From Pseudomonas guariconensis (lineage in GTDB: Bacteria > Pseudomonadota > Gammaproteobacteria > Pseudomonadales > Pseudomonadaceae), in the NCBI RefSeq assembly GCF_024127895.1, contig NZ_JAMYBK010000021.1:1-64000 (forward strand): DNA of 64,000 nucleotides, in the 5' to 3' direction. Below, one piece after another: positions 544 to 9,853 of this stretch (position 1 is its first letter; every line of letters starts with the position of its first letter). Below the pieces are notes generated by a model. The model did no database searches. It was not told the DNA's origin and saw only the letters and a program-made list of their open reading frames with translations. Made by a program: the position numbers and the translations under genes.

Positions 544-2378
544 GTGCGCCCAGCATGGGCGCAATCTTGTGGGTGAGAGTCCCGCCGTGAGTTGACCACA
601 GCGAACGAAGTGAAGCGCAACTGCATGAGGGCGACCGAGTGTGGGGAGGAAGCGTGGAGCGAAGCCGCGAGCCGATGAACAAGAACCGGATAGAAGGCGA
701 TGCCGACCAGGGCGAGCGGGCATGAAGTCGCGAAGCCCTCGTGGTCAAAGGGCGGCGGCGTAGATCCGGCGGTTGTGCGGTGAAGGATTGCGTCCTTACC
801 TGGGGAGATCTCGCCTTGTGCCTGAAAGGGCGACGGCGGCAGCCGGAGCGAGAAGTCAGCAGAGGCCGTAGTAGTTGTTTTTTTCGACGAAGGGCCGAAC
901 GAGAGAAAGCGCCGGAGGCCATCTTGATGCGACATGACCGGAAGTCAGATGCCCGCCAAACGCGGGGCGGACGCAGACGAGGAGCGGTGAAACCGTGAAT
1001 CGCTCCGTCAGCGACGAGGCATTGCGCCCGCAAGGTGATCCCGAAAGCGCAGGGCAAGGGCTGCTGCAACGCGCCTTTGCGAGAGGCAACCTGCAACGCG
1101 CCTGGAAACGAGTCAAGGCTAACAAGGGGGCGGCGGGTGTCGACGGTCTGGATATTGAGCAGACGGCCGAGCACCTGCTGACCGAGTGGGCCGGGATTCG
1201 CCATCAGCTGTTGTCAGGGGCGTATCGGCCCAGCCCGGTACGCCGCGTGGTGATTCCCAAGCCCGATGGTGGCGAACGCGAGCTGGGTATTCCGACGGTC
1301 ACCGACCGGCTGATCCAGCAAGCGCTGCTGCAAGTCTTGCAGCCGCTCCTCGATCCCACCTTCAGTGAACACAGCTACGGTTTCCGTCCGGGGCGTAACG
1401 CCCACGGCGCGATTCTCGCGGCGCAGCGTTATGTCGCGTCAGGACGGCGGATCGTGGTGGATGTGGACCTGGAGAAGTTCTTCGACCGGGTCGATCACGA
1501 CATCCTGATTGATCGTTTGAGCCAACGGATTGCGGACCGGCCGGTAATCCGGCTGGTCCGCGCCTATCTGGATGCTGGAACGCTAAAGGCTGACGTGATC
1601 GAGAAAAGCCGCTGCGGGGCGCCGCAAGGCGGCCCGCTGTCGCCGTTGCTGGTGAATGTGCTGCTGGACGAAGTGGATCGGGAATTGGAGCGAAGAGGCC
1701 ACTGTTTCGTGCGCTACGCCGATGATGCGAACGTCTACGTCCGCAGTCAAAAGGCAGGTGAACGTGTGATGGCCTGGCTGAAGCGTCTGTATGGACGGCT
1801 GCACTTGAGCGTCAACGAGAGCAAGAGTGCGGTGGCGAGTGCGCTTGGCCGCAAGTTCCTCGGTTATGCCCTCTGGCTGGCCCCGGATGACGAGGTGCGC
1901 CGTGGGGTGTCGATGAAGGCGCGGGAAACGTTCAAGCAACGGGTCAGGCAACTGACCCGCCGGCCCGGTGGCTGTAGTTTGGCTGATGTGGCCGGGAAAC
2001 TGCGCAGCTACCTCTTGGGATGGAAAGGGTATTTCGGGTTGGCACAAACCCCTCGAATCTGGCGAGCGCTGGACGAGTGGATACGCCGCCGCCTGCGTGC
2101 CCTTCACCTCAAGCACTGGCGCCATGGCAAGACGACCTACCGGGAGCTACTCCGCCTTGGAGCCAGTCCCCAGGTGGCGCAATCGGTGGCAGCACTGAGC
2201 CGCCGCTGGTGGCATAACAGCCTCTCCGCTGTGCACCGCGTGCTGACGATTGCCTACTTTGACCGTCTCGGCGTGCCGCGCCTCTCCTAACCTCAATCTC
2301 TCGAACCGCCCGGTGCGGACCCGCATGCCGGGTGGTGTGGCAGGGGAGCGGCCTGTGAAGGCCACCCCCTATGCCGAT
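544..2378 (+). mobile_element. Group II intron, bacterial class C type
   Basis: The 5' boundary begins GTGCGCCC with a short inverted repeat (GCGCCC AGCAT GGGCGC), typical of group II introns. A structured leader of about 450 bp precedes the reverse-transcriptase gene. After its stop a compact domain V/VI-like region follows: a stem built from ACCGCCCGGTGCGG and CCGCATGCCGGGTGGT, then a GC-rich hairpin ending ATGCCGAT near 2378. The 3' boundary is estimated from this pattern and could be off by a few bases. The site directly behind a terminator and the RT without an endonuclease domain both point to class C. The ORF and the RNA ends look intact, so the element may still be mobile. Confidence 0.8.
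995..2290 (+). CDS. ltrA: Group II intron-encoded reverse transcriptase/maturase
   Basis: This 431-residue protein is the splicing maturase and reverse transcriptase of the surrounding intron. The RT core runs from about residue 35 to 290: PKPDGGERELGIP at 88-100, the YGFRPGR motif at 128-134, VVDVDLEKFFD at 154-164 supplying one catalytic Asp, APQGGPLSP at 209-217, and the active-site YADD at 241-244. The region after about residue 310 matches the group II maturase (GIIM/thumb) domain, with LRSYLLGWKGYF. No HNH endonuclease domain follows, as expected for class C. It lies inside the intron in the same orientation, and the reading frame shows no disruption. Confidence 0.95.
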   Translation: MNRSVSDEALRPQGDPESAGQGLLQRAFARGNLQRAWKRVKANKGAAGVDGLDIEQTAEHLLTEWAGIRHQLLSGAYRPSPVRRVVIPKPDGGERELGIPTVTDRLIQQALLQVLQPLLDPTFSEHSYGFRPGRNAHGAILAAQRYVASGRRIVVDVDLEKFFDRVDHDILIDRLSQRIADRPVIRLVRAYLDAGTLKADVIEKSRCGAPQGGPLSPLLVNVLLDEVDRELERRGHCFVRYADDANVYVRSQKAGERVMAWLKRLYGRLHLSVNESKSAVASALGRKFLGYALWLAPDDEVRRGVSMKARETFKQRVRQLTRRPGGCSLADVAGKLRSYLLGWKGYFGLAQTPRIWRALDEWIRRRLRALHLKHWRHGKTTYRELLRLGASPQVAQSVAALSRRWWHNSLSAVHRVLTIAYFDRLGVPRLS

Positions 2379-2572: not shown

Positions 2573-2690
2573 TTACAGGCGCACGTCTTCTGCATTCGTC
2601 AGCAAATGTCGGCGCGCCATCCACAGGTTCGACAGGGCAAACAATGTCACCAGCTGTGCCGTGTTCTTCGCCAGGCCACGGAAGCGTGTC
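2573..2690 (-). pseudogene. C-terminal tail of an IS5-family transposase
   Basis: On the minus strand the last ~38 codons of a 169-codon open frame read RFRGLAKNTAQLVTLF...SNLWMARRHLL. This is the characteristic C-terminal end of IS5-type transposases, where a 'RYRGLAKN..QL..LFAL.NL..AR' block follows the final Glu of the DDE core. Nothing of the IS5 catalytic domain is present. The tail is joined in frame to an ISL3-type N-terminus at about 2690, so the join is a recombination scar. Family recognition is from motif memory; the abrupt change of family is clear. Confidence 0.65.
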
Positions 2691-3082
2691 TTCACAAGGG
2701 TGTGCCAGTGCAGGCCGGTGAGGTGGCTGACGTGGCTGATCGGCAACAGTTGCAGCAAGCCCTCGAGCCAGACGCGCATGCGCTGGGTCAAGCGGGAGGC
2801 CGGCTCCAGCCAGTCAATCCGCTCGGTCACCCGCCCGCAACTCAGGCAGTCGACGCGACGCACCGGCAGTTGCAGCAGGACCCGCTGATCCAGCAGGTCA
2901 CGGTCACGCACCTGACGGACTCGCCGCTCGTGGATCAACGGGCTGGGCTTGGCACACCGGCTGCAAATCGGTAAGCGCTCGGCCTGGGGTTCGAGGCTGA
3001 TTAGCAGGGTGTCGTGAGTGGCTTGGCGACAGGCGACAATCGCGTAGCCTGGCCAGAAAGCGGCAAGATCAATAGGATGCAC
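2691..3082 (-). pseudogene. N-terminal fragment of an ISL3-family transposase
   Basis: About 130 codons starting MHPIDLAAFWPG hold a CxxC...CxxC zinc ribbon (CSRC at 40-43, CLSC at 79-82) and a helix-turn-helix-like segment (LLPISHVSHLTGLHWHTLVKT). This is the usual N-terminal arrangement of ISL3 transposases of roughly 400 residues. The DDE catalytic domain is absent and is replaced by an IS5-type tail. Upstream, around 3155-3185, the sequence CTCTTTCCCCCGATTCCG could be part of an ISL3 terminal repeat, but no second copy was found. The element cannot be autonomous. Confidence 0.7.
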
Positions 3083-3416: not shown

Positions 3417-3453
3417 TGCTTGTGGTCATTCGTCCTGCTATCCCCGCACCCTC

Positions 3454-3517
3454 GTGGGAGCGGCCAATGGCCGCGAGACAACGCTGTTGCCCCTATCGCG
3501 GACAAGTCCGCTCCCAC
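3454..3517. repeat. REP-like palindromic element
   Basis: GTGGGAGCGG at 3454-3463 is mirrored by CCGCTCCCAC at 3508-3517, with a GC-rich interior that itself contains short complementary segments (GGCC..GGCC). Such GTGGGAGCGG palindromes are common Pseudomonas REP sequences. It sits just beyond the 3' end of the GMC oxidoreductase gene, the normal position for a REP element, and may protect or end that transcript. Confidence 0.7.
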
Positions 3518-3534
3518 AAGAGCGAAGGCCGGTG

Positions 3535-5757
3535 CTACAACGAGCCGAAGCGCACCTCCACCTCCAGGCTGCCCCGGTTGTCGCTCAGGCCGGCGCCGTA
3601 GCGGCCGTCCAGATCATCGTTGATGCACAGTTGCAACTCGCCTTTCTGGCCACGCGGTAACTGGCCTTGGGCGCCAACCAGGAAAGGCGCGCCGTTGCTG
3701 CCGATACGGCCGATCAGCGCGCCTTCGTTGGCCCCGGGCAGGGTGTAGCCGGGCTTGGCGATCAGCCCGGCGTGGCCGTCGCCACCGACCATGCCGGTGG
3801 CCGGATTGGCGGTCCACTGCCCGCTGCGGCACACCGCCAGTTGCCAGCTCTGCCCGTTGACCTGCACCCCGGTGCCTTGCCAGGCCTGATTGGCCTGCAC
3901 CTGCACGGTACGCGCCAGTAAATCGCTGGCCACCGTGTCCGCGGCCTGGAAGGCCAGGGCGGTGATGGTCAAGGTCGGGTTGGCTGTGCCGGTGCTGGGG
4001 AAGACGCCGTCACCGATCAGGAACAGGTTGCGGTGATCCCAGCTGCGCTGGTCCTTGTCGACCACCGAGGTCCTTGGGTCGTCACCCATGCGGTAGGTGC
4101 CCATCAGGTGGCCGGCGCCTTCATAGGCATAGGCCGCACCCTGGTAGCTGAAGACACCAGGCGGCGAGTTCTCCGTGGATGGGTTGAGGTTGGTCAGTTC
4201 CTCGGCGCCGAGCAGCTCGGTGATGATCTGCGTCGCCGCGTTGCGTGCCTGCTTGAAGCCCTCCTTGGTGTAGTCGGAAAAGTCGTAATGGATTTCCGGC
4301 CGCGGGATGCCGAGATGGTCCTTGTACTGCTGCGACGGCACCACCCGGCACAACGCCTGGTCGGGGTTCTCCTCCACCTGTTCCACCAGGAAGCCCAGGC
4401 GGAACTGGCGGGTGAGGATGCTATTGAGCTTCTGCACCAGCGCCGTGCCGAACAATGCCTGGGACGGCTGACCCTGTTGCGACGGCAGCGGGTTGGTACC
4501 GCCGTTATTGGTACCGTCGATGTAGTCGCAGACGGTGGTGTATGGATCGTTCTCCGACCAGTTCCAGCCTTCATTGCCGATCTCGATGCGCCAGGCCGCG
4601 CGTTGCCGGCGAAATTCGCCGTCGCGCAGGCTCTCGATTCCCGACGTGGACAGCGGCCCGCGATAGGGAAATAGCGCCTTGCCCTCCGGCATCAGCCCCC
4701 AGGCCAGGTACACGGGGTGGTCGGCCAGGCTGCAGCCGACCTGGCCGCTGCTGTTGGCAACCCCCTTCGGGCACTGCGGCGAAGCTGAGTTGAGCAGCAA
4801 CTTGGGCGTTTCAATGGCATGGGCGGCGATCACATAGCGTTTGCCCTGGGCCAGGCCGGTGCCGGTGGCCGGCCCATCACTGGTGGCGTACTGGATGAAC
4901 TCGATGCCGCTGACCTGTCCATTACCGTCCACCTGCACGCGGCTGGCCACGCTCTGGTAGAGGATGCGCACGTTGCCGGTGTCCAGCGCCTTGTTCATGG
5001 TCACCGTGGCATCGTACTTGGCCTGGATCGGACAGATCGGCGTGCAGCTGGTATTGCCGGCGCAGACCCGCCGGCCGTTGTCGTTCTGCGAGTTGCGCCC
5101 GGCCGGCGTCGGGCTGACCAGCAGCGGCAAGCCCTGGAACGACTGGCCATCCACCGCGGCAGCCAGCCCCTGATCCACCAGCGACGGCGGAATACCATGC
5201 ATCGGGTACTGGTAGCCGGGCGGGAAAGTCACCCCCAGGTAGCTCTGCGCGGCGACGTCGGCGGACACGCCGATTTCCGCCTCGGCGCGGCAATAGGCGC
5301 TTTGCAGATCGTCATAACCGATCGGCCAGTCGACGCCCACACCGTAAACCGTCTTCATGCGGAAGTCGTTCGGCAACAGGCGCAAGGAAGTACCCATCCA
5401 GTGCCACATGGTGCCGCCGCCGAGACGCTCGTAGGTGCTGCTGAAGGACAGCGGCCCTTTCTGCACCAGGTAGCTCTTCTGCGGGTCCTGCCAGCCGTTG
5501 ATCAGGTCCGCGATGGTGGCGCGCGGCGCGTTCTGCTGCGCCGGGTCCTGCGCCATCTCGTTCGGTGGGTAGGGCGCTTCCGGGGCCTTGAGGATAGCGG
5601 TATAGAAGCGCTCGAGGTATTCGCTGCGATTCGGTGGAATCGCCGGGCCGGACTCCAGTACCAGCACCTTCAGCCCGGCCAGGCCCAACTGGTAGGCCAT
5701 CACGCTGCCGGCCATGCCACCGCCCACCACTATTACATCCGCTTGTTCAGTGTTCAT
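3535..5757 (-). CDS. GMC-family FAD dehydrogenase with C-terminal PA-IL/LecA-like lectin domain
   Basis: The 740-residue flavoprotein starts MNTEQADVIVVGGGMAG. The dinucleotide-binding glycines are at 12-17, and the GMC C-terminal signature (GTANPTLTITALAF, after GTYRMG and NLFLIGDG) lies near 560-600. It probably oxidises a sugar or alcohol and passes electrons to the cytochrome c encoded upstream. Residues about 620-740 are not part of the GMC fold. They resemble the calcium-dependent galactophilic lectin PA-IL, with an opening W..G..V pattern, a central GL(I) segment and a terminal block INDD...YG...DNRGSLEVEV that parallels YND..G.YG.NNSGSFSV of LecA. The ATG at 5757 overlaps the upstream stop (ATGA). 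A longer upstream start is possible but overlaps the small-subunit gene. No signal peptide is visible. Confidence 0.85.
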   Translation of the reverse strand: MNTEQADVIVVGGGMAGSVMAYQLGLAGLKVLVLESGPAIPPNRSEYLERFYTAILKAPEAPYPPNEMAQDPAQQNAPRATIADLINGWQDPQKSYLVQKGPLSFSSTYERLGGGTMWHWMGTSLRLLPNDFRMKTVYGVGVDWPIGYDDLQSAYCRAEAEIGVSADVAAQSYLGVTFPPGYQYPMHGIPPSLVDQGLAAAVDGQSFQGLPLLVSPTPAGRNSQNDNGRRVCAGNTSCTPICPIQAKYDATVTMNKALDTGNVRILYQSVASRVQVDGNGQVSGIEFIQYATSDGPATGTGLAQGKRYVIAAHAIETPKLLLNSASPQCPKGVANSSGQVGCSLADHPVYLAWGLMPEGKALFPYRGPLSTSGIESLRDGEFRRQRAAWRIEIGNEGWNWSENDPYTTVCDYIDGTNNGGTNPLPSQQGQPSQALFGTALVQKLNSILTRQFRLGFLVEQVEENPDQALCRVVPSQQYKDHLGIPRPEIHYDFSDYTKEGFKQARNAATQIITELLGAEELTNLNPSTENSPPGVFSYQGAAYAYEGAGHLMGTYRMGDDPRTSVVDKDQRSWDHRNLFLIGDGVFPSTGTANPTLTITALAFQAADTVASDLLARTVQVQANQAWQGTGVQVNGQSWQLAVCRSGQWTANPATGMVGGDGHAGLIAKPGYTLPGANEGALIGRIGSNGAPFLVGAQGQLPRGQKGELQLCINDDLDGRYGAGLSDNRGSLEVEVRFGSL

Positions 5758-6251
5758 ACGCTGGGACCTCCATTGGCGGGCACGCCGGTAAAGTCTTCCA
5801 GGCTCGGTGGTTGCTCGGCCCAGTAACCGAAGTGGAATTCGCTGTAGCCCATGGGATGCGCCTGGGCGATGCGCCATGCCCAGCTTTCCTTGTAGGCCTG
5901 GTCGGAGACCACATGCTGGTCGCCCTGGTGCTGGTCACCCTGGTCGTACGGCTGGTACCAGACACCCAGCAGCCAGAGTTTCATGATCGAACGGGCGCCC
6001 TGGGCGGTCTGGCTGTTCGGATCGGCCAACACGGCGGCGGCGATCTGGTCCGCTGTCTTGCCTTCGCCCTTGAGGGTGGCGTACTGCTCCAGCAGGCTGC
6101 TCAGTACCGCGGCGCCCAGGCCTTGCTGGGCGGTATCGAAGAACACCGGCGGCAGGTTGATCGGGTCGATGGACGGGGCGAGCTTGCTCGATGCCAGGCC
6201 AGTGAGGGCCGATGACAGGTCGACGAAGTTCTGCAGGTTCTGGTCGCTCAT
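5754..6251 (-). CDS. Probable small subunit of the GMC dehydrogenase (sorbitol/gluconate dehydrogenase small-subunit type)
   Basis: This 165-residue protein starts MSDQNLQNFVDLSSALTG. It has a helical N-terminal half and a C-terminal block with IMKLWLLGVWY and a tract rich in H, W and Y (ESWAWRIAQAHPMGYSEFHFGYW). Small subunits of membrane-linked FAD sugar/polyol dehydrogenases have this size, this partner gene and a similar LW..G motif. I use that family as the best guess. The gene overlaps the GMC start by four bases and begins 4 bp after the cytochrome c gene, so the three products are probably one complex. No signal peptide is visible, so co-export with a partner would be needed if it acts in the periplasm. 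Confidence 0.6.
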   Translation of the reverse strand: MSDQNLQNFVDLSSALTGLASSKLAPSIDPINLPPVFFDTAQQGLGAAVLSSLLEQYATLKGEGKTADQIAAAVLADPNSQTAQGARSIMKLWLLGVWYQPYDQGDQHQGDQHVVSDQAYKESWAWRIAQAHPMGYSEFHFGYWAEQPPSLEDFTGVPANGGPSV

Positions 6252-6255
6252 GGCA

Positions 6256-7599
6256 TCACTCCTTGACGCCGCTGGACTGGGCGCGTTCGAGCAGGTAGGT
6301 GAAGTCCGCAAAACTGGTGCGGGGTGACTGCGTCACCTTGGTGGTGGCGTTGTTATGGCACTCCATGCAGCTCGAGGAGGCTTGCGGGGTGGTGCCCTGG
6401 ATGTAGGTTTCCAGGGTAGTGTTGGCGAGGAAGGTGGGCGCCGGCGTGCCCAGCGGATTGGTCGGCGACGGCACCTGGCAGTCGTTCGCCGGGTTGGTCG
6501 GCCACTGGGTGCTGACCAGTTGGTAGTTGGCCCATACCGTGCCTTGCAGCGCCGCCTGGAACTGCGCGTTGAGCTGCTGGGTCGCGGCGTCGATGGGAAT
6601 CTCCCGCACGATCTGCGACGGCGTGGTCGCGACCGAGGGATTCCACGGCCGCGGCGGCGGCTCGTTGACCGGCCGGTCGCTGGCATGGGGGTCGTAGAAC
6701 AGGTAAGGCCCTTTGCGCTCGTTTACCGGTGTGGTCTTCTCCGGCACGTTGCGCACGTGCTCGAAGGTCGACCAGACCCACTGTGGCGCATCGGCGGTCT
6801 TGTGCACGATGTGCAGGCCGACCAGCCCGACCTTGGCCGAGGTGCAGGACTCGGGAATGATCGGCCCCTTCTCCGGATCATCGTTGCCCGGCGTATAGAT
6901 CAGCGCATTGACGGTATGGAACTGGTCCGGTTGGTCGTTTCCGTCCAGCAGCTTCCAGGATGCCTTGACCATGATCGAACCGACCTCCCGGGTCTCGTTC
7001 GAACCACAGCTGAAGGCCACCCGGTTCTGGGCGTTGGCGAAGAACTTCTCTTGGCCCTCGACGCTGTACAGGCCGTTGTCGACGATGCCGTCGAACATCG
7101 CCTGGTTCACCACGATTTCATTGCGCGCGTACTGGCCGCTCTGGTCGATCAGCGGTCCGGTCTTGAAGGGCTGGATGAACTCGTCCAGCACATCCGGCAC
7201 CTTACCGACCTGTTGCAGCACGCGCCCGCTCTCCAGCCCCTGGCAGGCGGCCGGTGGCGGCGAAGGCTGGTTCCAGCCGGCCGGTGTCTGGCCGTTGGAC
7301 AGGAAGATCTGGTAACTCTCCTTCCAGGACTCCCACACTGTCGGCGCGTCTGGCTTGCCGATCTGCGCATCGGTGTCGGGCAGGCCGTTGGCCAAGGCTG
7401 GCCAGTTGATCGCGACGAAGGTCTGCCAGGACAGCACATCGAAATCGTGCTGCAAACTTTGCAGGCTGACCGGTGGGACCACGGTGACATCGAAAGGGAT
7501 CTGTGGGGACAGCGGGGGAGTAGCGGCTAAGGCAGGTAATGTGAGAACGCTGGCGACGGTACAGCTCCAGTACGCCGAGCGTCGGGGGCTCTTTTTCAT
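6256..7599 (-). CDS. Secreted mono-haem cytochrome c family protein
   Basis: The 447-residue product begins with a basic stretch and a hydrophobic segment (VASVLTLPALAAT), a Sec signal cleaved near residue 25. The only haem site is CMECH (Cys411, Cys414, His415) close to the C-terminus. The long preceding region contains FDVLSWQTFVAINWPA and a WVWSTFEHVRNVP block, a pattern I associate with large cytochrome-c-like proteins next to GMC dehydrogenases. It is the first gene of the operon and likely accepts electrons from the flavoprotein in the periplasm. A good ribosome-binding site (GAGGAGACGACA) precedes the ATG. Confidence 0.75.
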   Translation of the reverse strand: MKKSPRRSAYWSCTVASVLTLPALAATPPLSPQIPFDVTVVPPVSLQSLQHDFDVLSWQTFVAINWPALANGLPDTDAQIGKPDAPTVWESWKESYQIFLSNGQTPAGWNQPSPPPAACQGLESGRVLQQVGKVPDVLDEFIQPFKTGPLIDQSGQYARNEIVVNQAMFDGIVDNGLYSVEGQEKFFANAQNRVAFSCGSNETREVGSIMVKASWKLLDGNDQPDQFHTVNALIYTPGNDDPEKGPIIPESCTSAKVGLVGLHIVHKTADAPQWVWSTFEHVRNVPEKTTPVNERKGPYLFYDPHASDRPVNEPPPRPWNPSVATTPSQIVREIPIDAATQQLNAQFQAALQGTVWANYQLVSTQWPTNPANDCQVPSPTNPLGTPAPTFLANTTLETYIQGTTPQASSSCMECHNNATTKVTQSPRTSFADFTYLLERAQSSGVKE

Positions 7600-8060: not shown

Positions 8061-8258
8061 ACCCAGGCCGAGGAGGCACGCGCCGACCGGATCACGACGG
8101 CGCTGATGCAGGAGCAGATATCGGTTTCTACGGCAGAGCCCTTCGCCACTTCGCCGCATGTGCCCCACGCTATCCGGCTGGCACTCGGCTCGGTCGACAT
8201 GCTGTCGCTGGAATCAGCCCTGCAACGAGTGGCGTCGGTTGTCGGCTTATATTCGTGA
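8061..8258 (+). pseudogene. C-terminal remnant of a MocR/PdxR-type regulator
   Basis: The plus-strand frame reads LTQAEEARADRITTALMQ, then VSTAEPFATS and PHAIRLALGSVD, and stops at 8258. This is the C-terminal end of MocR proteins, GntR-type DNA-binding domains fused to an aminotransferase-like PLP fold. The helix-turn-helix and nearly all of the aminotransferase domain are missing. Its position directly against an oppositely oriented EamA 3' end suggests that an original divergent MocR/EamA pair lost its middle. It overlaps the last codons of the convergent phosphoribosyltransferase gene by 12 bp. Confidence 0.7.
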
Positions 8259-8882
8259 CTTCCTGGCCAGACATGGGCCGCCACCAATAGCTGCTTCTGG
8301 CTCGAGATTGCCACTCGAAAGACGATGTTGACCATGACGAATGATCTCAATCCGGAAGTCCGGCTCATACGGGGGAACATGGCATTCGACGATATCGTCT
8401 GGCGCAGCTTGCAATCGGATACCCACGATATCCGCATGAATCGGCTGCGTGCTTACGCAGCGGTCAACCAGAACGGCGGTGTGTATCCTCCGTGCGCCAA
8501 GCCTGGCGAGGTAGGCGCAGGTACGCAGGAGTGAGTGCCCCTCGTAGAGCACATCGTCAACAACCAGCAGCGGTGTTTCTGCGAGATTCAGTGCTGCAAG
8601 TCCGGGGTTTTCAATAAGCGCCGTCTCGGGATGTACCAGGCTCAGATCGTCGGCATAGCGTTTGACTTTCAGCGTATAGAGCGAAGGAGCCGGCGCTCCA
8701 ATGGGGTGGCAGTACCGTGACAAGGCGGCTGCCAACGGCGCACCGCGGCGCAGGATGCCAATGAACGCAAAGGGTTGCTCGTATGACAATGAAGCCAGTT
8801 TCTGCGCCATTGATTCCATGACAGTCCCCAGTTCCCGGGAGTCATATACGCAGAAACGATCGGTTGCTGCTGGAGTCGTCAT
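8247..8882 (-). CDS. Type I phosphoribosyltransferase
   Basis: This 211-residue protein has the PRPP-binding loop LLVVDDVLYEGHS around residues 104-116 and an earlier ILRRGAPLAAAL segment typical of PyrR/hypoxanthine-type phosphoribosyltransferases. The acceptor base or ring cannot be told from the sequence. It overlaps the PRPP-synthetase-like gene by four bases (ATGA), so the PRPP maker and a PRPP user are probably translationally coupled. The C-terminal ~25 residues (after IRHGQHRL) look unconserved and run into the MocR remnant, so the original stop may have been altered. Confidence 0.85.
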   Translation of the reverse strand: MTTPAATDRFCVYDSRELGTVMESMAQKLASLSYEQPFAFIGILRRGAPLAAALSRYCHPIGAPAPSLYTLKVKRYADDLSLVHPETALIENPGLAALNLAETPLLVVDDVLYEGHSLLRTCAYLARLGARRIHTAVLVDRCVSTQPIHADIVGIRLQAAPDDIVECHVPPYEPDFRIEIIRHGQHRLSSGNLEPEAAIGGGPCLARKSRI

Positions 8883-9853
8883 ACCGCAGCGTCTCGTTGA
8901 CCGCCGATGTTGTACTGGGTGGCGAGGGCTGCAGCGATACTTTCAGATGTATCCAGTACGTCGAAATGGCCCGCTTTGGATTCCAGCGCGGGCAGGGGAA
9001 CGCTGTCGCTGATCACGACCTTCTTCAATAGTGGACTTTCCATCAGCCCCTTACTGTCGGTGAATAGCCCATGGGTCGCCAATGCATAGATTTCGAGGGC
9101 CCCTCCAGCATGACAGGCTTCAGCCGCCCGGAGCAGCGTGGCCCCCGTACTGATGAGGTCATCGAACAGAATTACCGTGCACCCTTCGACTTTTCCGATC
9201 AGCGTGCCACCGCTCAAAGTTTCGTCGCGGCGGTACTTTTCTACGCAAGCGTGACCTATTGAACGCCCCAGGCGCTCTTCCAGGATCTGGCGGAATCGTT
9301 CGGCTCTCTTGATTCCGCCCAAATCCGGCGAAGTGACCACGATTGACTCACCCTGGTGCCAGCCAATGACGTGCTCGGCGAAAAGCGGTGCACTTTCCAG
9401 GTGCTGGGTTGGAATGCGAAATGCGTTATCGAAGGCTGCCCGGTCATGCACATCCATAGTCATCAGGCTATCGATGCGACTTGCTTCCATCATGGTCGCG
9501 ATGTAACGGGTAATGACTGGATCCTGTGCCTGGGTGCGCCGCTCCTTGCGCGTATAACAGAGATAAGGGCAAACAACCTGAAGATGCCGGGCGCCTGCAT
9601 CCTTGATTGCAGCGCTGAGAAACAGCAGGCGGCACAGTTTGTCGTGCACGCTCAGGCCAGGTTCTGGATAGAGTCCAGAAAATACGACGACGTTCCTGCC
9701 TGAAACTGGATCCAAGGGACGGCACTTGTATTCGCCATCCTCATACTGGTGCTCCGCAAGGGCACCGAGAGGTAGCGTGAGGTGGCGTGCGACGCGAGTG
9801 GCGAAGGCGTGGCTCTCATGGAGAGCCAGGAGCAGGGGAGCTTCGTCGGCCAT
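8879..9853 (-). CDS. Ribose-phosphate pyrophosphokinase-like protein
   Basis: The 324-residue product has both halves of the PRPP synthetase fold. The first shows SVHDKLCRLLFLSAAIKDAGA with VCPYLCYTRKER and a VHDRAAFDNAF segment; the second shows the ribose-5-phosphate/PRPP loop VILFDDLISTGATL. It should make PRPP from ribose 5-phosphate and a nucleotide. It is divergent from housekeeping Prs and is encoded next to a phosphoribosyltransferase and Hsp20. Related Pseudomonas loci also carry a thymidine/AMP-phosphorylase-like gene, absent here. That comparison is from memory. The job is probably stress-linked nucleotide salvage rather than bulk PRPP supply. Confidence 0.85.
   Translation of the reverse strand: MADEAPLLLALHESHAFATRVARHLTLPLGALAEHQYEDGEYKCRPLDPVSGRNVVVFSGLYPEPGLSVHDKLCRLLFLSAAIKDAGARHLQVVCPYLCYTRKERRTQAQDPVITRYIATMMEASRIDSLMTMDVHDRAAFDNAFRIPTQHLESAPLFAEHVIGWHQGESIVVTSPDLGGIKRAERFRQILEERLGRSIGHACVEKYRRDETLSGGTLIGKVEGCTVILFDDLISTGATLLRAAEACHAGGALEIYALATHGLFTDSKGLMESPLLKKVVISDSVPLPALESKAGHFDVLDTSESIAAALATQYNIGGQRDAAV

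Follow-up and report, generated by a model that had tools for sequence, protein, structure and literature searches.

Known parts newly combined: a flavin dehydrogenase joined to a LecA-like C-terminal domain in some species of Pseudomonas

Three genes lie together on the minus strand of the window (the whole 64,000-nucleotide stretch of Pseudomonas guariconensis DNA that was analysed). In the direction of transcription these are a gene encoding a protein with one CxxCH motif (7599-6256), a gene encoding a small subunit (6251-5754) and a fusion gene in which a flavin dehydrogenase is followed by a LecA-like C-terminal domain (the tail). The small-subunit ATG follows the one-CxxCH gene's stop codon at a distance of four bases. 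The minus strand of 3535-5757 is the coding strand; when read in the same register, the plus strand contains stop codons. The features of the locus are:

3538..5757, minus strand: coding sequence of the fusion protein, 740 aa (ATG at 5757, stop codon 3535-3537)
3919..5757, minus strand: GMC dehydrogenase core, residues 1-613 (PF05199/PF00732, PDB matches and model)
5032..5064, minus strand: predicted 3Fe-4S motif C232-x5-C238-x3-C242 (alignment with FAD-GDH)
3538..3909, minus strand: PA-IL/LecA-like domain, residues ~617-740 (profile link and predicted structure)
3571..3621, minus strand: predicted calcium loop, residues 713-729 (LecA/PllA and PA-IL-like alignments)
5754..6251, minus strand: small subunit, 165 aa, lacking cysteine, FAD-SLDH-like by its relatives
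6256..7599, minus strand: exported protein of 447 aa that has one CxxCH and an apparent leader, without a Pfam match
6355..6369, minus strand: sole CxxCH motif of the 447-aa protein, residues 411-415

The genome that carries the fusion gene is 5.34 Mb in size. Among the matches listed, the closest named loci are those of Pseudomonas benzenivorans and Pseudomonas sp. BN102 (94-95% protein identity), as given by a genome-contig scan that may omit near-identical records. An inverted repeat (3451-3520) with 13-nt arms spaced 44 nt apart is found 3' of the fusion-gene stop codon and resembles a Pseudomonas REP element. Farther downstream is the N-terminal part of an ISL3-type transposase (2576-3082, minus strand, 169 aa) having a zinc ribbon and HTH, which is a probable fragment. 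The window also encodes a group II intron reverse transcriptase/maturase (995-2287, plus strand; RVT_1 and GIIM) and, at 8250-9853 of the minus strand, adjacent phosphoribosyltransferase and ribose-phosphate pyrophosphokinase-like genes.

The core of the fusion protein has the GMC fold with an FAD Rossmann motif and is of the FAD-glucose/fructose dehydrogenase type. Pfam searching of the protein gave PF05199 (1.1e-21) and PF00732 (3.4e-10). The best match of the core among the PDB sequences was the Burkholderia FAD-dependent glucose dehydrogenase (FAD-GDH) 6a2u (6.4e-88), and fructose dehydrogenase (FDH) sequences matched at 2.6e-71 to 4.4e-70 (7w2j, 3.2e-71). The nine best structural matches of the full-length model (pLDDT 82.5, pTM 0.87) were all FDH or FAD-GDH. 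Residues H550 and N593, which align with the active-site His and Asn of FAD-GDH/FDH and are invariant (24/24), we take to be the catalytic His and Asn of the C-terminal part. Cysteines C232, C238 and C242 align with the Fe-S cysteines of FAD-GDH and FDH and are also invariant (24/24), which predicts a cluster at a motif where the confidence of the full-length model is below 50 (residues 233-241). Ala233 replaces the second cysteine of the FAD-GDH CC pair, and the small subunit of the window has no cysteine. In the Burkholderia enzyme a cysteine ties the catalytic subunit to the small subunit, according to PMC9727119. The alignment would place that cysteine within the Fe-S motif and make Ala233 its counterpart.

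A preliminary description had recognised the LecA-like tail from the raw sequence, where searching the fusion protein against Pfam yields no PA-IL (PF07828) match in the tail. Only chance-level matches to PDB sequences were obtained by phmmer with the window tail (HasAp, 0.51) or by hmmsearch with the tail family alone (pseudouridine glycosidase, 0.098). PF07828 was listed at E<=1 for two of the 23 members of the tail alignment (best 9.9e-4), and its own matches were to one of 369 class genomes, to none of 14 controls and to nothing in the genome of the window. As one-step sequence searching failed, an intermediate family of kinase-fused relatives was needed for the PF07828 link. A profile of the 23 tails searched over 390 order genomes gave matches in the genome of the window and in five more, the latter at 1.6e-11 to 1.8e-7, and by eye the five other proteins (L115-L119) have a kinase-like N-terminal part plus the tail domain. 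One of these scanned whole gave Pkinase at 3.3e-37. Three of the five tails were scanned and all list PF07828, one above the 22.5-bit cut-off (33.8 bits) and two below it (16.8 and 19.3 bits). A joint profile of seven dehydrogenase tails and five kinase tails had PA-IL/LecA or PllA as its four best PDB matches (7.7e-4 to 3.1e-3); since this profile includes the scanned kinase tails, the two profile lines are not independent. The sequence link of the window tail to PF07828 runs via the kinase-fused relatives. The PA-IL profile check is split, with Pfam silent on the window and the linked profile reaching PF07828, and because the window tail gives no PF07828 match we call it PA-IL-like rather than a Pfam PA-IL member.

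The AlphaFold model of the tail alone (pLDDT 92.8) gave a second line of evidence; since only the window and close relatives of it, and no templates, went into the model, this line is independent of Pfam. All 11 Foldseek matches at E<=0.001 were LecA, PllA or EclA, and the TM for the LecA fold was 0.81/0.86. In structural alignments with 988 chains the tail model matched LecA at Z 17.8 (1.7 A over 117 residues, 25% identity), PllA at Z 14.2 and EclA at Z 13.4, the only entries above Z 9 among the matches listed, and the next best other chain was at Z 8.4. Folds at Z 8.4 and below were dismissed as general beta-sandwich resemblance. The tail is therefore predicted to have the LecA beta-sandwich fold, and a match to another beta-sandwich family, which would have counted against the preliminary description, did not arise. 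Given a kinase-fused relative that passes PF07828 and the predicted fold match, the LecA resemblance exceeds chance. The description of the protein as a GMC core fused to a PA-IL/LecA-like domain is thus borne out by Pfam for the core and by the kinase-linked profile and the model for the tail.

The block ND...YG...DN-R-G-S, which had been placed at the LecA calcium loop, lies at residues 713-730 and stood in most of its letters. Residues N713, D714, D715, L716, G721, G723, D726, N727 and G729 are identical in 39/39 tail sequences and Y720 in 36, but the R and S of the block are poorly conserved (residue 728 is R in 2/39 and residue 730 is S in 11/39). In the alignment D714 faces LecA Asp100, and D726 and N727 face Asn107 and Asn108; PllA shares the D-N pair at the D726/N727 place. 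Asn108 of LecA is a calcium ligand. The calcium-site signature at the LecA place, D714, D726 and N727 in all 39 sequences, thus appears sound. Compared with LecA and the kinase tails, the loop has about five extra residues, and the full-length model gives residues 711-730 moderate confidence (64-65). Outside the loop, Y671, G675 and E678 are identical in every one of the 39 sequences.

The LecA galactose sits on Ca2+ with hydrogen bonds to Asp100 and Asn107, its O6 is held by His50 and Gln53, and Cys62 is near the hydroxymethyl group, according to PMC12684298 and PMC10243309. In the tail family His50 and Gln53 have no conserved counterpart, within an alignment that is loose in the facing region: between residues 656 and 680, His occurs at 662 in 5/39 sequences (window included) and at 665 in 12/39, and Gln at 660 in 3/39 and at 676 in 7/39. 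The invariant Glu678 stands at the place of Cys62. On these alignments the calcium site looks to have been kept and the sugar pocket changed. As the O6 contacts lack conserved counterparts and the calcium loop is longer, the galactose specificity put forward in the preliminary description is not supported. The N-terminal LecA domain of Enterobacter cloacae EclA is similarly altered, its calcium ligands being kept and its galactose-binding residues not, and no glycan is known for it; galactose binding of the tail is therefore not to be assumed. The EclA domain has Asp-Asp-Asn calcium ligands and in the crystal contains calcium and forms dimers, but galactose resin did not retain full-length EclA and a glycan array revealed no ligand for the LecA domain (PMC11875179). 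If the tail docks on a glycan, this is probably something other than galactose bound as in LecA.

Two other roles for the tail may be weighed on this evidence. A domain that binds galactosides and passes them to the active site, an idea of the preliminary description, would be in keeping with the LecA-like predicted fold and the calcium-ligand positions, but the absence of conserved O6 contacts argues against substrate feeding, as does the presence of the same cassette without the domain in several phyla, and we consider it very unlikely. The main rival to glycan docking, possible though less probable, is a tail that retains the LecA fold, possibly with calcium, yet now lacks a glycan function and acts as a structural or oligomerisation module. 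The lack of conserved O6 contacts speaks for such a module, as do the EclA domain, which binds calcium and dimerises with no ligand found, and the tetrameric state of both LecA and PllA (PMC11875179). Against it, the conservation of the calcium-ligand positions together with D715, Y671, G675 and E678 (39/39) goes beyond what a spacer would need.

LecA-like domains also recur on unrelated proteins, which is a further argument against a purely structural module and fits a docking module. An open reading frame at L126:358-1875 encodes a Tle1-like phospholipase (PF09994, 4.6e-31) with a C-terminal PA-IL-like domain (PF07828 at 20.6 bits, below the cut-off), and by eye L128 and L129 resemble it. 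L125 has an N-terminal PA-IL-like domain on an RTX-repeat protein (PF00353, 6.6e-39) and L127 is alike by eye. The kinase-fused proteins L115-L119 have, again by eye, a likely membrane segment and a coiled coil between the ends already described, and are possible glycan-sensing kinases. The fusion adds an oxidoreductase to the kinases, Tle1-like phospholipase protein and RTX-repeat protein met here as carriers of LecA-like domains.

The tail is real coding sequence under purifying selection. Compared with nine relatives, dN/dS was 0.08-0.37 for the tail and 0.10-0.27 for the core, values that are rough given that dS exceeded 1 in some of the pairs. The search of the genus covered 298 genomes; 36, that of the window among them, match nearly all 740 residues, and one more (G079) has two copies that match residues 1-613 only. 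Another genome (G226) encodes a 333-aa open frame (L120:1715-2713) that has no Pfam match and whose tail shares 60% identity with that of the dehydrogenase; this frame is a possible source of the fusion. A decayed cassette with pieces of the haem protein and dehydrogenase in a single open frame is seen in G045 (L121), where the tail match was not above chance.

A scan of genome contigs gave at least 78 loci from 584 confirmed stretches. Among the 78 listed, the tail is present in 38 (37 titled Pseudomonas and one gammaproteobacterial MAG) and 36 lack it but have a core of at least 480 aa; L095, L099, L104 and L107 could not be read as full cores and were omitted from the tree. On a quick tree built from 75 cores, of which 39 carry the tail (window included), the tail label required two changes, compared with a mean of 25.3 for shuffled labels. 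The simplest reading is that the tail was gained once in the Pseudomonas clade and lost once, in P. batumici; this species groups with P. protegens and shows no tail remnant. Such a clean absence from a species nested beside P. protegens again favours the tail as a structural module. The searches of the order (390 genomes) and phylum (398 genomes) produced no second GMC fusion among their matches, all ten non-window matches being on other scaffolds. The viral-contig scan found no relative, and in the best 15 of 634 plasmid records no match went beyond residue 648.

The neighbouring genes make up the rest of the cassette. The small subunit gave no Pfam match when read as 165 or 164 aa, whereas a 185-aa reading from a TTG start gave PF12318 at E=0.0035 (18.0 bits, cut-off 24.2). 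PF12318 was also found in four of nine small-subunit relatives, above the cut-off in L090 and below it in L041, L075 and L089, which ties the small subunit weakly to that family. Of the 68 listed loci in which a small subunit was found, 59 also have a homologue of the one-haem protein next to the dehydrogenase, including those of Lysobacter, Pedobacter, Mucilaginibacter, Acidobacteria and one cyanobacterium. All 59 homologues listed have exactly one CxxCH, and by eye most have an export or lipoprotein leader (L045 is short at its front). The cassette occurs without the tail domain in other phyla. The tail is an add-on, since other bacteria have the same cassette without it. Inspection by eye of the open reading frames flanking 12 loci revealed no shared sugar gene.

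An export leader was not seen on the catalytic subunit, nor was a Tat leader seen upstream of or at the ATG of the window small subunit. The scan found an in-frame hydrophobic leader upstream of the small subunit in none of the 38 tail-bearing loci, and none was seen in such loci by eye. Three other loci were positive: in L075 and L081 the leader-like stretch overlaps the haem gene, and that of L091 looks like a true Tat leader. The scan missed L092, which is Tat-like by eye, and hence is not fully sensitive. The 0/38 result could be taken to favour a tail that is a targeting or secretion device, taking the leaderless enzyme out by an unconventional route, and LecA, likewise, is not known to have a classical signal peptide. 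However, most tail-less relatives also lack a visible leader, so the tail does not explain the leaderless subunits; tail-driven export was set aside as their cause, and we judge the secretion role quite improbable. A leaderless small subunit beside an exported haem protein is a trait of most of the cassette family rather than of the fusion. The respiratory sugar dehydrogenase of the preliminary description is supported in part: the core family and the neighbour genes fit it, but the haem neighbour has a single CxxCH in place of three haems and no Tat leader is visible on the small subunit. The window segment 5754-7599 and homologous loci among L036-L097 represent a cassette type unlike that of FAD-GDH/FDH.

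We favour a reading in which a respiratory dehydrogenase carries a calcium-dependent glycan-docking tail, and give the model as a whole about an even chance of being right. The cassette would supply the catalytic subunit together with its small partner and the exported one-haem protein. The FAD-glucose/fructose dehydrogenase-type enzyme would oxidise a sugar or sugar-like alcohol, electrons would pass from FAD to the 3Fe-4S cluster, then to haem c and the respiratory chain, and the tail domain would dock the enzyme on a glycan through Ca2+. As the catalytic and small subunits are without visible export leaders, the tail may never meet extracellular Ca2+ or glycans. We think it rather unlikely that the wider proposal holds in full: that a calcium-dependent LecA-fold domain of new specificity, with a changed O6 pocket, a longer loop and an invariant Glu, docks a class of bacterial respiratory dehydrogenases to polysaccharide, that local oxidation of the glycan or its breakdown products feeds respiration and that the catalytic part exits without a Tat hitch-hiker.

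The tail shares its predicted fold and calcium-ligand positions with P. aeruginosa LecA and Photorhabdus PllA, both of PF07828. It differs from LecA and PllA in lacking a conserved His50/Gln53 counterpart, in its longer loop, in its invariant Glu678 and in being fused to an enzyme. The EclA LecA domain is also part of a larger protein, but its partner is a fucose-binding domain, not an enzyme. If the tail binds no sugar, it would with EclA be another LecA domain of shifted role.

Burkholderia FAD-GDH and Gluconobacter FDH share with the fusion the catalytic fold, FAD motif, 3Fe-4S cysteines and an adjacent small-subunit gene. In the known enzymes, as described in PMC9727119, the cytochrome is triheme and the small subunit acts as the Tat hitch-hiker. 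In contrast to the triheme cytochrome c of FAD-GDH/FDH the cassette has a one-CxxCH partner, and no Tat leader of the kind present on their small subunits was seen on the cassette small subunit. FAD-GDH has an intersubunit disulphide, whereas here Ala233 is present, the small subunit lacks cysteine and the tail is extra. With FAD-GDH enzymes under study for use in glucose sensors (PMC9727119), a natural tail of this type plus a one-haem partner may have practical interest.

A literature search, with subscription journals mostly outside it, found no report of a GMC dehydrogenase fused to a LecA-like domain. A parallel in plan is that of the fungal class-IIA cellobiose dehydrogenases (CDH), in which a GMC dehydrogenase has a C-terminal carbohydrate-binding module, given as CBM1 in PMC5847212, where the fusion has its LecA-like domain. 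A characterised bacterial CDH is presented without CBM1 in PMC10940743. The fungal enzymes differ from the fusion in having an unrelated binding module and a fused haem b cytochrome domain and in being eukaryotic. To our knowledge, they also have no Fe-S cluster. If glycan docking by the tail is correct, the CBM-bearing GMC dehydrogenases of fungi would have a bacterial counterpart in the Pseudomonas fusion, put together from unrelated parts.
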